DNA of 64,000 bases, from positions 2,418,001-2,482,000 of the forward strand of contig NZ_CP106855.1 of the NCBI RefSeq assembly GCF_002209355.2, given 5' to 3'. This DNA is from Bdellovibrio sp. SKB1291214 (GTDB lineage Bacteria > Bdellovibrionota > Bdellovibrionia > Bdellovibrionales > Bdellovibrionaceae). Of the stretch, positions 38,704 through 43,836 are shown one piece after another. The notes below the pieces were generated by a model. That model was not told the origin of the DNA. It saw only the letters and a program-made list of their open reading frames with translations, and did no database searches. Numbering within the stretch: the first letter of the stretch is position 1; each line of letters starts with the position of its first letter. The translations under genes were made by a program, and so were the position numbers.

Positions 38704-40923
38704 ATGCATAGTCTTCCAGCATTGATCAGTGATTTGGCTCTTATTCTTGGTACCGCGGGTATCGTTACACTTCTCTTTAAAAGATTAAATCAGCCAGTGG
38801 TGCTTGGTTATTTAGTTGCGGGTTTCCTGATTGGCCCAAACGTCGGTCTTTTTGGTACTGTCAGCAGTTCTGAAGGCGTTCAGCTGTGGGCCGATATCGG
38901 TGTGATTTTTCTTTTGTTCGCCTTGGGCTTAGAGTTCAGTTTCAAAAAACTTTTCCGCGTGGGTGGTTCAGCAAGCTTCACGGCTTTGTTTGAAGTGGGT
39001 TTTATGACCATCATTGGTTTCACGACGGGGAAACTTTTGGGGTGGGATCTCATGGACTGCCTTTTCTTAGGCGGTATTTTGGGGATTTCTTCGACATCGA
39101 TTGCAATGCGTACCATTGATGAAATGGGTTTAAAGAATAAAAAGTTTGTTAGCATCGTGATGGGTGTTCTGGTTATCGAAGACCTTGTGGCGGTGATGCT
39201 TTTGGTCTTTTTGACTTCAATCGCTTTGACTCGCGAATTCGCGGGCAGTGACATGTTGTTATCATTCTTGAAGCTGGCATTTTACCTCTCACTTTGGTTT
39301 GTTGTGGGAATTTTCTGGTTACCCACGGCGCTTAAGAAAATGCAGAGCATGCTGAACGAAGAAACCCTTTTAGTGGTGGCTGTTGGGCTTTGCTTGGCAA
39401 TGGTGGTCTTTGCCGTGAAGGTGGGATTCTCGGCGGCATTGGGTGCGTTTATCACGGGTTCGATCTTAGCTGAAACTATCGAAGGCGAACGTATTCATCA
39501 CCTTGTCACTCCCATTAAAACATTATTTTCGGCGGTGTTTTTTATATCGGTAGGAATGTTGATCGATCCTGATGTGATTGCCACTCATTGGCAGGTCATT
39601 GTCCTGTTATCAGTTTTGGTGCTGATCGGAAAAACCTTGGGCGTGACCGTCGGCGCGGTTTTATCCGGACAAACTTTGAAATCCAGTTTGCAAACCGGGA
39701 TGACCTTGTCTCAGATTGGCGAATTCTCATTTATTATCGCGACGGTCGGGGTGGGTTTTAAAGTCGTTAGGCCCGAGCTGTATCCCTTAGCTGTTTCAGT
39801 CAGCGTAGTGACTGCCTTTACAACTCCCTTCATGATTCGTATGGCAGATGGGACGTACAAGTTTTTAGAAAAGAAAATGCCCACTGATTTTATCCAGGCC
39901 CTGGATCGTTACTCCATGTTTTCGTTCACGATGGCGGCTCACAAGGAATCTCGTGATCAGGTTCGTGCTTATGTGTTTAAAATTTTCTTAAATGCCGTGA
40001 TTGTGATCGGTGTGTTTTTATTGATGGCAAAAGTGACGTTGCCCTATTTGCTAAACCACCAAGTCGAGGAGGGGTCTGCAAAGTTCCTGACTCTGACGGC
40101 AACCCTGATCATGAGTTCTCCGTTTTTATGGGCCTTGGCGTTTGGTCGCACTAAGCAGTTTGATAGCTTGGTGGCGGGTGATGGTCGTGGGACGCAAAAC
40201 TATGTCTTCATTATTTCTCGAGTCATGGTAGCTGTCGGATTAGTTGGAGCGATGGTGGCACAGTTTGTACCACTGGGATGGGCCTTGGGGATTACCGCGT
40301 GGATGGCTGTTGTCGTGGGTTATGTTTTGTCGACCAAGCTTCGCGCCATCTATCAGTGGTTTGAAAATCGCTTTATCACGAACCTGACGGAAGAAGTTCA
40401 CAAGGTGACACCACGAACTCACACTCAAGCCCTGGCTCCTTGGGATGCCCATTTGACAGAGTTCAAAGTTCCAGCGGAAGCGCAATATCTGGGAATTCCT
40501 TTAGCACAGCTTTCCATTCGCGAACGTTTCGGAGTGACGGTGGCTTTGATTGAACGCGGGCGTCGCAAGATCATGGCTCCGGGGCGCGATGTGATGTTGA
40601 TGCCTCAAGATATTGTGTTTGTGATTGGGAATGACGATCAGCTCGCAAACTTCAAAGGCTTCATCGATGCCGAACAGGATTATCAAAACCTGGATGAAGA
40701 CCTTTCTGAATACACGTTAGAAAAGTACATACTGACCGAGCAGTCTAAGTTCTTAGGTAAAACGATTCGCGACAGCGGACTTCGTGAAAGCACCAACGGA
40801 TTAGTGGTCGGTATCGAACGCGAGGGCGAGCGCATCTTAAACCCAGATTCCGGTGAAGTTCTAAAACTCAGCGATCTTCTATGGATCGTAGGCGATCGCT
40901 CCAGAATCCGGGATTTGGTGTAG
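38704..40923 (+). CDS. CPA2 cation/proton antiporter with two TrkA-C domains
   Basis: 739 residues. The Na+/H+-exchanger membrane domain (about 1-390) carries V-L-G-Y-L-V-A-G-F-L-I-G-P and L-L-F-A-L-G-L-E-F, plus G-I-L-G-I-S-S-T-S-I-A in the transport core. More hydrophobic helices follow (about 430-540), and the C-terminus has two TrkA-C-like beta domains (about 575-660 and 665-735; P-A-E-A-Q-Y-L-G-I-P-L and S-K-F-L-G-K-T-I-R). Unlike the antiporter at 25897, it has no Rossmann TrkA-N domain. It exchanges K+ or Na+ for H+ across the inner membrane. Monocistronic. Confidence 0.9.
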   Translation: MHSLPALISDLALILGTAGIVTLLFKRLNQPVVLGYLVAGFLIGPNVGLFGTVSSSEGVQLWADIGVIFLLFALGLEFSFKKLFRVGGSASFTALFEVGFMTIIGFTTGKLLGWDLMDCLFLGGILGISSTSIAMRTIDEMGLKNKKFVSIVMGVLVIEDLVAVMLLVFLTSIALTREFAGSDMLLSFLKLAFYLSLWFVVGIFWLPTALKKMQSMLNEETLLVVAVGLCLAMVVFAVKVGFSAALGAFITGSILAETIEGERIHHLVTPIKTLFSAVFFISVGMLIDPDVIATHWQVIVLLSVLVLIGKTLGVTVGAVLSGQTLKSSLQTGMTLSQIGEFSFIIATVGVGFKVVRPELYPLAVSVSVVTAFTTPFMIRMADGTYKFLEKKMPTDFIQALDRYSMFSFTMAAHKESRDQVRAYVFKIFLNAVIVIGVFLLMAKVTLPYLLNHQVEEGSAKFLTLTATLIMSSPFLWALAFGRTKQFDSLVAGDGRGTQNYVFIISRVMVAVGLVGAMVAQFVPLGWALGITAWMAVVVGYVLSTKLRAIYQWFENRFITNLTEEVHKVTPRTHTQALAPWDAHLTEFKVPAEAQYLGIPLAQLSIRERFGVTVALIERGRRKIMAPGRDVMLMPQDIVFVIGNDDQLANFKGFIDAEQDYQNLDEDLSEYTLEKYILTEQSKFLGKTIRDSGLRESTNGLVVGIEREGERILNPDSGEVLKLSDLLWIVGDRSRIRDLV

Positions 40924-41058: not shown

Positions 41059-41715
41059 ATGAAAATGACCACGTTTGTAATTGCTTCTTTGCTCTTGGTC
41101 TTGAACTCTCATGCGTCTGAATCTGTGAGCAGCAAAGACGCCGAACTGAAAATAGAATCTAACAAGGCCTTAGTTTCATTATCGAGTGTGCTGAATATCC
41201 AGATCGGCAAACAGCCGATAGTGTTTCGCGGGATTGTTGAAAGTCTGTCTTTAAGTGAATCAGGCACTGCTGCCAACTTAAAGGGTGCGGTCGCAGAAGA
41301 CCTGGAATGCACGCTTTATATATCGGACTATCAAGGTCCTGGTGTTCATGTGGAGCTTTCGCGAAAAGGCAGTGATGAAGGCTCTCGTAAGTTCGTAACG
41401 AGTGTTCGCTTTGAAGGGTCTTATGAAGACGAAGACAACTTTACGAAAAGTTCAGCAGAGCTTTCAAATGGCAATGTAGCCATATCTCAACTTAAAATGT
41501 TTAAGACCTCTCTGGATTATCGCGGGGGAGGAACGTACAAAAGCAAGGCTCTAACGCAAATTACGATAGCCCCGATTATCGATGATCGCATCGAGAAGGT
41601 CGTTTTCGCAGATTATTTCCGTGACTCAGACTTTTGGAATCTGATCCCGATCCCTGTTATGAGTTCCTCCAAAGATACCGGCACATGCAAGGATCTAAAG
41701 CGAATCAATAGGTAA
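41059..41715 (+). CDS. Secreted protein of unknown function
   Basis: 218 residues with a signal peptide (about 1-19, S-H-A). The mature chain is charged and beta-strand rich with two Cys (about residues 83 and 213). No family is recognised. The Shine-Dalgarno is part of the palindrome GGAGAGCTCC (41048-41057). The last 11 bases overlap the convergent RAYT gene, and its stop codon TAG is formed at the start of the left REP-like palindrome. Confidence 0.7.
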   Translation: MKMTTFVIASLLLVLNSHASESVSSKDAELKIESNKALVSLSSVLNIQIGKQPIVFRGIVESLSLSESGTAANLKGAVAEDLECTLYISDYQGPGVHVELSRKGSDEGSRKFVTSVRFEGSYEDEDNFTKSSAELSNGNVAISQLKMFKTSLDYRGGGTYKSKALTQITIAPIIDDRIEKVVFADYFRDSDFWNLIPIPVMSSSKDTGTCKDLKRINR

Positions 41716-42358
41716 CAGTTCCCTTTCTGTACTGCGCTTCGTCTAACGGGCTTTTCTTTTTGGTTGAGGTTTTCGGAGGTGAAAACTCACGCCTGCGAAG
41801 CCCTTTCTGAATACTTTCTTCAATTTCTTTTTGAAAAGGCTCGTTAAGCCATTCGCAGTCGGGGGTTATTTTTGGTTTCTCTGGATGAAACCAATCAGCA
41901 AGATCCCAATGCCATTTGTGCGGTGAATTGTTTAGCGATGAGAAAAGATAGCCTTCAACCTTCTCGCATATACCTGCACGAACTGGGTTTCTAAAGACAT
42001 ATTTTATGCAATTCCAGTAGTAATCTTCGCGGTTAATTACTGACCACTTATACCGTCCACCGAAAAAGTGATTGATCCGCTGAGTGTCCTTGTTCGCTTT
42101 TCTTGCCACTTCTCGATGGAGGTACTTCATAGCTTCACCCAAGTTTTTCCGCGGCGTGCTTAAGATAAGGTGGTAGTGATTGGACATCAAAACGAATGAG
42201 TGAATCTCACAGTGGAACTGCTTTTTTAGCTCATGGAGGCATTCCAGAAAAATGGGCCATAGGAATGGATTTTCTAAATAAAAGTTCTCACGGTTATTAG
42301 ATCTATTTGTCACGTGATAGGGAAATTCGTCTGTAATTATTAATATTTTTCTTGGCAT
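41705..42358 (-). CDS. REP-associated tyrosine transposase (RAYT, IS200/Y1-like)
   Basis: 217 residues. The Y1-transposase-like fold is recognised by Y-H-V-T-N-R-S-N-N-R near the start, the HUH-type metal motif in M-S-N-H-Y-H-L-I-L, F-G-G-R-Y-K-W-S-V, and Y-V-F-R-N-P-V-R-A-G-I. RAYTs are single-copy, domesticated relatives of IS200 that act on nearby REP palindromes. Inverted REP-like sequences lie at both sides here. The protein ends in K-G-T-V-T-Y, encoded by the left palindrome. The ATG has AGAGG directly abutting it, a poor ribosome site. The catalytic Tyr could not be placed with certainty. Confidence 0.85.
   Translation of the reverse strand: MPRKILIITDEFPYHVTNRSNNRENFYLENPFLWPIFLECLHELKKQFHCEIHSFVLMSNHYHLILSTPRKNLGEAMKYLHREVARKANKDTQRINHFFGGRYKWSVINREDYYWNCIKYVFRNPVRAGICEKVEGYLFSSLNNSPHKWHWDLADWFHPEKPKITPDCEWLNEPFQKEIEESIQKGLRRREFSPPKTSTKKKSPLDEAQYRKGTVTY
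41711..41737. repeat. REP-like palindrome, left copy
   Basis: It begins GGTAACAGTTCCCTTT (41711-41726) and ends ACTGCGC (41731-41737). The same two blocks occur inverted at 42415-42446, flanking the RAYT gene. Read on the minus strand it encodes the RAYT C-terminus R-K-G-T-V-T. Confidence 0.75.
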
Positions 42359-42414
42359 CCTCTGGGCGAATGCTTGCAGCGGGCCAGGCCCTATATGGTA
42401 CCGATTGATTTATG

Positions 42415-42446
42415 GCGCAGTGGGTTCCGAAAAGGGAACTGTTACC
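42415..42446. repeat. REP-like palindrome, right copy
   Basis: GCGCAGT (42415-42421), then GGTTCC-gaaaa-GGGAAC hairpin, then TGTTACC to 42446. The block 42431-42446 is the exact reverse complement of 41711-41726. The TAA stop of the aldehyde dehydrogenase (42444-42442) lies inside it. Confidence 0.75.
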
Positions 42447-43836
42447 CCATGAGCTTTTTGATCAGGTCGACTTTTTTGGCGTTGTAGGGTGGATAGATGA
42501 GTTTCATCAATCGGCCGAAGGGGCCTTGCATGAAGATGGCTTTTTTGTGGCTGAAGGTCTCAAATCCATAAAGTCCGTGATAACTTCCCAGCCCGCTGGC
42601 GCCCACGCCCCCAAAGGGGAGGTTTGGATTCATCATTGAAACCATCGAATCATTCACTGAAAAAGTTCCTGATGAAGTTTCCTTCATGATTTTTTGGATG
42701 TTATGGCGAGCATGGGAGTACATATAGATCGTCAAAGGTTTCGGGCGATCGTTGATAAAGTGAACGACTTCGGTGATTTCCTTAAATTTTAAAATTGGTA
42801 AAATCGGCCCAAAGATTTCTTCGTTCATCACCTTCGTGTGCACATCAACGTCATCAAGCAGAGTAGGTGCCACATAGTTTTGCTCAAGGTCCACTTCACC
42901 GCCGACAATTAAACTTGCGCGATTCGCCAAAGCATCTTCAAGTAAACCTTTAAGACGATAGGTGTGTTTTGCATTAATGATACGAGCAAAGCTATGAGAC
43001 GATTTTACCTCATTCTTATTGCTTCCATAGTACTCTTCAAGTTGAGCTTTAAGTATATGGATGAATTCTTGATGAATATGTTCTTGAACGAAAAGGTAAT
43101 CAGGCGCGATGCAAGTTTGTCCCGCATTCAAGAATTTGGCCCAAATGATCTTTTGCGCCGCCAATTTTAGATCTGCCGTCGTATCCACAATCGTCGGAGA
43201 TTTCCCACCCAGCTCCAAAGTCAGTCTTGGAAGTTGGGGTGCTGATTGTTGCATAATAATTCTGCCAACCTCGGTGCTGCCAGTGAAAAAGACGTGATCA
43301 AATGGCAGTTTTAAAAGGGCCGTCGTTGTCTCGGGTCCCCCCTCAACCACGGCGACCTGTTCAGATTTAAAATATTTTGATAGCAAAGCATGCAGTAGTC
43401 GGCTGGTATGGGGTGCATATTCAGAAGGTTTCACCACCGCAGAATTTCCGGCAGCCAATGCTGAAATCAGGGGAGCAATGGTCAAGTAAACCGGATAATT
43501 CCAAGGTGATATAATCAGGCAAGAACCTAAGGATTCATAACGTGTATAGCTTTTTGATCCAAATAAAAGAAAAGGCGTACTTACGCGTTTAGGTTTCATC
43601 CATTTCTTTAAGTTTTTTTGGGCAAAACGCAGCTCTTTTAAAAGAGGCATGATCTCGGTGGATAAGGATTCCAGATGGGGCTTTTTAAAATCGTGATGCA
43701 GGGCTTTGCAAATTTCAGATTGATGCTCGGTCAAAAGTTTTTCCAAAACCTCAAGATGATCGAATCGTTGGTGCCAGGATTCTGTGCGGCTGTGTTGTGC
43801 GAAAGATTTTTGACGAAGCACGAGTTGTTCAAGCAT
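42442..43836 (-). CDS. Aldehyde dehydrogenase, class 3/fatty-aldehyde type
   Basis: 464 residues, typical of class 3 ALDH (about 450-485). NAD(P)-binding motifs I-S-P-W-N-Y-P-V-Y and F-T-G-S-T-E-V-G are followed by the catalytic Glu in L-E-L-G-G-K-S-P and the nucleophile Cys in N-A-G-Q-T-C-I-A-P-D-Y. The C-terminal M-N-P-N-L-P-F-G-G-V-G-A-S-G motif is present. It oxidises medium or long-chain aldehydes to acids; a hydrophobic C-terminal helix suggests membrane association. Its stop codon falls in the REP-like palindrome at 42415-42446. Confidence 0.93.
   Translation of the reverse strand: MLEQLVLRQKSFAQHSRTESWHQRFDHLEVLEKLLTEHQSEICKALHHDFKKPHLESLSTEIMPLLKELRFAQKNLKKWMKPKRVSTPFLLFGSKSYTRYESLGSCLIISPWNYPVYLTIAPLISALAAGNSAVVKPSEYAPHTSRLLHALLSKYFKSEQVAVVEGGPETTTALLKLPFDHVFFTGSTEVGRIIMQQSAPQLPRLTLELGGKSPTIVDTTADLKLAAQKIIWAKFLNAGQTCIAPDYLFVQEHIHQEFIHILKAQLEEYYGSNKNEVKSSHSFARIINAKHTYRLKGLLEDALANRASLIVGGEVDLEQNYVAPTLLDDVDVHTKVMNEEIFGPILPILKFKEITEVVHFINDRPKPLTIYMYSHARHNIQKIMKETSSGTFSVNDSMVSMMNPNLPFGGVGASGLGSYHGLYGFETFSHKKAIFMQGPFGRLMKLIYPPYNAKKVDLIKKLMG

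Follow-up and report, generated by a model that had tools for sequence, protein, structure and literature searches.

Genes for REP-associated tyrosine transposases (RAYTs) bracketed by inverted REPs, known as REPtrons, have been described in several studies (Nunvar 2010, PMC2817692; Corneloup 2021, PMC8266576). They combine a Y1/HUH protein, two inverted flanking REPs and dispersed non-autonomous copies, with one RAYT per REP family and the downstream REP at the end of the RAYT. In E. coli the C-terminal tail of the transposase contacts the foot of the REP, and loss of the last 13 residues increases activity (PMC8266576). Inverted pairs of REPs are known as REPINs (Bertels & Rainey 2011, PMC3116915) and as double-foot REPs (subclass 2.4, PMC6006769), and REP types without the canonical GT[AG]G foot are on record (PMC6006769). 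A position at gene ends also has precedents: GTAG-tagged REPs are found no more than 20 bp from the 3' ends of genes in convergent orientation, for which the REP termini frequently supply a TAG stop codon (Di Nocera 2013, PMC3733652), and 260 of 496 E. coli REPs lie at most 15 nt from stop codons, affecting translation (Liang 2015, as cited in PMC12306157). Our literature search found no paper linking Bdellovibrio with RAYTs in substance.

Here we describe a locus of Bdellovibrio sp. SKB1291214 which is of the known RAYT-REP kind and, as far as the literature searched shows, a previously undescribed version of it. It shares with REPtrons all the features listed above, but its foot is AGGTAA rather than GT[AG]G, and its downstream REP encodes the last five or so residues of the transposase. 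As in REPINs and double-foot REPs, an inverted pair forms one palindrome, here of 53 bp, with a foot at each end, whereas the halves lack a fold of their own, the foot is another one and the hosts are Bdellovibrio and its order. Closeness to convergent 3' ends and a stop supplied by the repeat are shared with GTAG-tagged REPs; the difference is that both TAG and TAA are supplied here, and that empty relatives show the native ends to have been kept. The short distance to stop codons recalls the E. coli REPs, although the repeat here often overlaps the stop itself. New are the GTAA foot, the weakly folding single copies and the REP-encoded transposase tail, along with empty sites, both of repeats and of the entire unit, and gene ends which have been hit by two or more families. 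The gene-end phenomenon, to which a first-pass annotation of this DNA had drawn attention, is real but not novel, since REPs supplying stops have already been published (PMC3733652).

The window analysed is a stretch of 64,000 nucleotides, to which five-digit positions refer; longer positions are those of the genome, and G and L numbers are our handles for genomes and loci. Two 16-nt blocks, GGTAACAGTTCCCTTT, are present, as the first-pass annotation had recorded, at 41711-41726 (plus strand) and 42431-42446 (minus strand), with exact, inverted arms 704 nt apart, so that the unit, both blocks included, spans 736 bp. The single gene inside it is the RAYT (41705-42358, minus strand), assigned through Pfam, NCBIfam and orthologues as a TnpA-REP-like Y1 (HUH) transposase of 217 aa. 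Downstream of the RAYT lies the left REP half-element (41711-41737, plus strand; foot GGTAA, core CAGTTCCCTTT) and upstream of it the right one (42415-42446, minus strand; foot GGTAA, core CAGTTCCCTTTTCGGAAC). The right foot contains, as proposed, the TAA stop (42442-42444, minus strand) of the host gene to the right, an aldehyde dehydrogenase (42442-43836, minus strand; Pfam Aldedh, 2e-93). To the left of the unit is a gene for a 218-aa protein of unassigned family (41059-41715, plus strand); the TAG stop once claimed for it proved to be a misreading, as its end reads ..AAT AGG TAA and the stop is the TAA at 41713-41715 within the left foot, at +3 to +5 of the head. The motif ACTGCGC, noted earlier in both copies, is indeed common to these two but is not a feature of the family. 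A 31-mer from the right end was ruled out as a family signature, being unique in the genome within 3 mismatches.

The RAYT call itself was upheld by Pfam PF01797 (Y1_Tnp; E 1.2e-9, over the cut-off). NF047646, the equivalog model of NCBIfam for REP-associated tyrosine transposases, matches at E 1.6e-18 and stays under its cut-off, at 67 bits against 80. The HYH motif in SNHYHL and the Tyr/NPVRAG region, which mark the Y1/HUH domain, are conserved in the RAYT alignment, and a PDB sequence search gave no relative at E 0.001. Orthologues share 75% identity in G010 and G012, 59-61% in G057 and 49% in L331. Codons 41711-41725 (minus strand), supplied by the left repeat, are the C-terminal KGTVT; the annotation had also placed the final Y in the repeat, but its codon (TAT, 41708-41710) and the TGA stop (41705-41707) fall immediately beyond it. 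In all five RAYTs of the clade, KGTVT is encoded by the downstream repeat at or near the C-terminus, followed by Y in this genome and by WDGAREET in one G057 copy. The stops of these five, whether TAA, TGA or TAG, are built partly or wholly from flanking DNA, which means that the reading frame of the transposase extends past the element it belongs to. One stretch of DNA has three jobs here, as presumed transposon end, as the neighbour's stop codon and as code for the tail of the transposase itself.

Rather than an isolated pair, or copies sharing neither palindrome nor spacing, many further copies and a common 53-bp palindrome were found. GGTAACAGTTCCCTTT has 35 exact copies in the genome, a single contig of 3.68 Mb, and the reversed-pattern control has none, so the arms at the locus are not a chance pair. 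A shorter 13-mer has 36 copies here and is present in 8 of 59 other genomes (in two of them as a single copy), also with a control of 0; G006 is one of the genomes that lack the family. A survey of 291 genomes from the phylum places the 16-mer in the same order alone. These 35-36 dispersed REP copies are accompanied by one cognate RAYT in this genome. Twelve-base matches without the CCCTTT part (e.g. at 544280, 1026081, 1042089, 1325478 and 3318145) look like chance and were left out of the counts. GGTAA, the motif used to pick the copies, is the foot of every one of them and of the RAYT's own two ends; GT[AG] is kept and the fourth base is not G, and because REP types without GT[AG]G are known, such a foot bars the canonical subtype and not the RAYT-REP kind.

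The repeats are accompanied by a close RAYT (59-100% identity) in G000, G010, G012 and G057, and the RAYT is bracketed in all four; a second RAYT copy of G057 has a full repeat on its downstream side only. The more distant RAYT of L331 is flanked on both sides by the same repeat family. Repeats are present in G011, G022 and G024, all three covered by the RAYT search, and no close RAYT was found there, so that the repeats appear to outlast the gene; G133 has repeats as well. G024 (L297-L310), from another genus, carries 20 repeats, many as 53-bp palindromes; its flank lacks an A at -1, and nine of its genes end on the repeat's TAA.

The complete element is a near-perfect palindrome of 53 bp, GGTAACAGTTCCCTTTT....AAAAGGGAACTGTTACC, with longer versions of 54-93 bp and with a foot at each end (AGGTAAC...GTTACCT), and such inverted pairs occur in G000, G012, G024 and G057. 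Twenty-three complete elements from these four genomes were aligned; the search criteria dictate the outer 13 pairs and leave the inner pairs free to vary. The inner arms covary (score 0.178 against 0.062 in shuffled alignments, with 0 of 500 shuffles as high), and two-sided changes in the inner pairs fill 39 cells against 13.5 in shuffles, which is not pure proof of selection, as palindrome-restoring replication errors could add to it. Folded as single-stranded DNA, six paired forms are strongly structured (z about -9 to -12), whereas four single copies fold no better than shuffles (z -0.3 to -1.4), including the two of the locus (z -0.6 and -0.3). The strong hairpin thus belongs to the 53-bp pair and not, as had been suggested, to each single copy. 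Sites that are polymorphic between genomes suggest that the 53-bp palindrome spreads as a unit. Short tandem duplications of foot and flank, such as GAAGGTAACCGAAGGTAACAG and TTAGGTAACCTTAGGTAACAG, were observed at L028 (about 1535-1570; genome 3298388), at L216 (about 325-345 and 1084-1105) and at L224; repeated strand transfer, or slippage at the foot, may have left them.

The whole unit also has an empty site. In G010 and G012 it lies between the aldehyde dehydrogenase gene and a convergent gene for a CPA2-type antiporter (38704-40923, plus strand, in the window; named from the sequence itself and compared with L215, L216, L217 and L218), which is its original left neighbour in both; in G012 the TAA of the foot closes both neighbouring genes. 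In G001, G005, G007 and G011 the aldehyde dehydrogenase and antiporter genes directly adjoin. Given the tree of gene ends, ((G000,G012),G011),G010, the simplest history would be a single gain preceding the split of G010, followed by a single loss in G011. The RAYTs of G057 are at other loci (L247, L248). The 41059-41715 gene is extra, standing between antiporter and unit in this genome only and ending on the repeat's TAA; its 218-aa product has no match in Pfam, NCBIfam or PHROG, and its C-terminal 80 aa were found in its own genome only, among the matches listed from 24 genomes.

We consider it very probable that the locus is a RAYT-REP unit, or REPtron, in which a single-copy Y1/HUH transposase is bracketed by its own inverted half-palindromes, its REPs being dispersed in trans and tolerated at stop codons. 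Mobilisation by this RAYT and the strand chemistry are inferred: the RAYT would disperse the 53-bp palindromes in trans, probably nicking the single-stranded, folded element beside its foot as E. coli TnpA-REP does, with single-stranded AGGTAACAGTTCCC as its putative substrate. The insertions observed lie mostly between genes that converge, and there at the stop codon. With a preceding T, the foot AGGTAA carries TAG as well as TAA and closes two of the three frames, so that a gene cut in its last bases would be closed at once at nearly native length and insertions at stops would be tolerated. Counted against the REPtron are the GTAA foot, the weak fold of single copies, the NCBIfam score below cut-off and the genomes without a RAYT.

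That copies lie at gene ends was borne out by a genome-wide count, with gene ends defined by open reading frames of at least 90 aa and positions counted from the first G of the head. The last base of a stop codon falls at -3 to +5 of 20 of the 36 heads in this genome, and at -8 to +5 of 22. The repeat's own bases form the stop in 14 of these 20 stop-linked heads, at +1 (TAG) and +5 (TAA): seven have a TAG completed by the first G of the foot, and in seven the foot's own TAA (GGTAAC) is the stop, while TAA or TGA ends directly ahead of the head's G in four. Stops at -3 to +5 were counted at 13 of 23 heads in G012, 8 of 36 in G057 and 9 of 20 in G024, all nine through the TAA of the foot. Of ten single copies, seven have their head facing a stop, where uniform intergenic placement would give about 1.3 (P about 3e-5, or 1e-3 under the very tight assumption that only 35 nt are free; these values are rough, gene boundaries being ORF calls and two gap lengths being assumed). 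The base at -1 is A in 34 of 36 heads here and in 35 of 36 in G057, also in heads away from stops; beyond it the flank is almost uninformative (T at -3, 0.56 bit). CT, the cleavage dinucleotide in E. coli, is not clearly enriched upstream of heads (18 of 36, against 14 of 40 ordinary gene ends). Both stops of a convergent pair hold single halves at 1057570/1057690 (L006, L007) and at 1482059/1482168 (L013, L014), with a terminator-like hairpin kept between the halves in both cases; relatives have a similar terminator at 1057570/1057690, and the halves there therefore look like two separate insertions.

For 29 host genes, the C-terminal 80 residues were searched in 24 genomes, and the DNA at the relatives' gene ends was then read. 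At most sites, relatives that lack the repeat close the gene at an identical residue or not more than about 3 away, e.g. ..NFQ stop in all relatives at 1057570, ..KAMT or ..KSMT stop in most at 3299000, and ..SVRL, SIRL or SVRV stop at 777248. The repeats thus entered existing gene ends, truncation of the host gene, as a reason why genes stop at the repeat, was ruled out at most sites, and the earlier suggestion that the element sits silently in gene ends fits the native protein lengths which these sequences predict.

The genome holds six Y1_Tnp genes. Besides the RAYT of the locus, four of them (L046, L047, L048, L050) have their own long inverted repeats, GGGGTACCGGTCA, GGGGTATCGGTCAT, AGGTACGGACACACTTTGTCCA and AGGTGCCAGGTCCTATTT, and at least four more RAYT-REP families may thus be present. 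Two of these were followed as sister families B and C, with 13 copies of AGGTACGGACACACTT and 17 of AGGTGCCAGGTCCT; each brackets its own RAYT, and 6 of 13 and 8 of 17 copies, respectively, have a stop at -8 to +5. All these repeat families begin with GGT and lack the canonical GT[AG]G foot. Several gene ends carry one repeat in this genome and another at the very same stop in a different species: 1482168 reads CTT TAG, then GTAACAG here (family A), and CTT TAG, then GTGCCAGG in G011 and G012 (family C); 633053 and 2118199 have family A here and family C in G011; and at 1057690, family A here corresponds to a B-like repeat at the same TAA in G012. Within one family, 3330576 reads TGA, then GGTAAC here and TAG, then GTAAC in G010, with no repeat in G011 or G012, both of which are closer to this genome than G010 is in the tree of gene ends, and 1712984 holds the family at a shifted position between species. 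Some of these differences could stem from one repeat having been replaced by another, or from small indels at a later time.

Why the repeats are found at stops may be explained in several ways, and selection is favoured over targeting. For a selection filter we put the chances at about even: single-strand insertion would be near-random, only insertions at gene ends would survive, and halves would be kept where the foot had become the stop while the other half decays. The two frames closed by AGGTAA, the 14 of 20 heads at +1 and +5, the use of the element's own TAA by every stop-linked head of G024 and the head-first orientation of most singles all agree with such a filter, and other bacteria commonly have REPs beside 3' ends (PMC3733652). 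Insertion 10-60 nt beyond the stop, however, should do no more harm, yet such positions are rarer, and proteins keep their native length within about 3 residues although longer C-terminal losses would often be tolerable.

That insertion is steered to a stop-like sequence such as T-N-A, by the RAYT or by single strand exposed at gene ends, is possible, if somewhat doubtful. Transposases of the IS200/IS605 group choose a short target through a guide. The near-constant A at -1, present in heads away from stops too, would suit targeting, as would different REP families at the same ends in different species (1482168, 633053, 2118199, 1057690) and the shifted positions at 3330576 and 1712984; but the A may belong to the element, the flank beyond it says almost nothing, CT is not clearly enriched and only 8 of 36 heads in G057 are at stops. 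The fuller proposal, in which RAYT-driven insertion is directed at stop codons, several families, each with a different RAYT, choose the same ends repeatedly and the foot regenerates the stop, we regard as rather unlikely.

An RNA-level role at the stop, such as the ribosome stalling or protection of mRNA ends reported for stop-proximal REPs of E. coli, is an improbable reason for the repeats being kept: proposed by analogy, it would match the stop-proximal position of E. coli REPs (PMC12306157) and the strong hairpins of the paired form, but presence is patchy between close species and single halves have no significant fold. An ordinary, freely transposing IS200/IS605 insertion sequence is most improbable, for despite the compact 736-bp unit, the inverted ends, the empty site in relatives and the two copies in G057, the gene is single-copy here and scores 25.6 bits against a cut-off of 55 with the NCBIfam IS200 transposase model NF033573, the dispersed copies are many and non-coding, and the same locus is kept in G000, G010 and G012.

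For the REPtron as for its dispersed repeats, these genomes bear on an open question in the REP literature, namely by which route REPs are disseminated and whether RAYT genes move as units. The lineage offers occupied and empty sites, several RAYT-REP families in a single genome and gene ends hit by different families, and targeting and selection are therefore separable by experiment. If targeting were true, this would be a mobile element aimed at the ends of translation.
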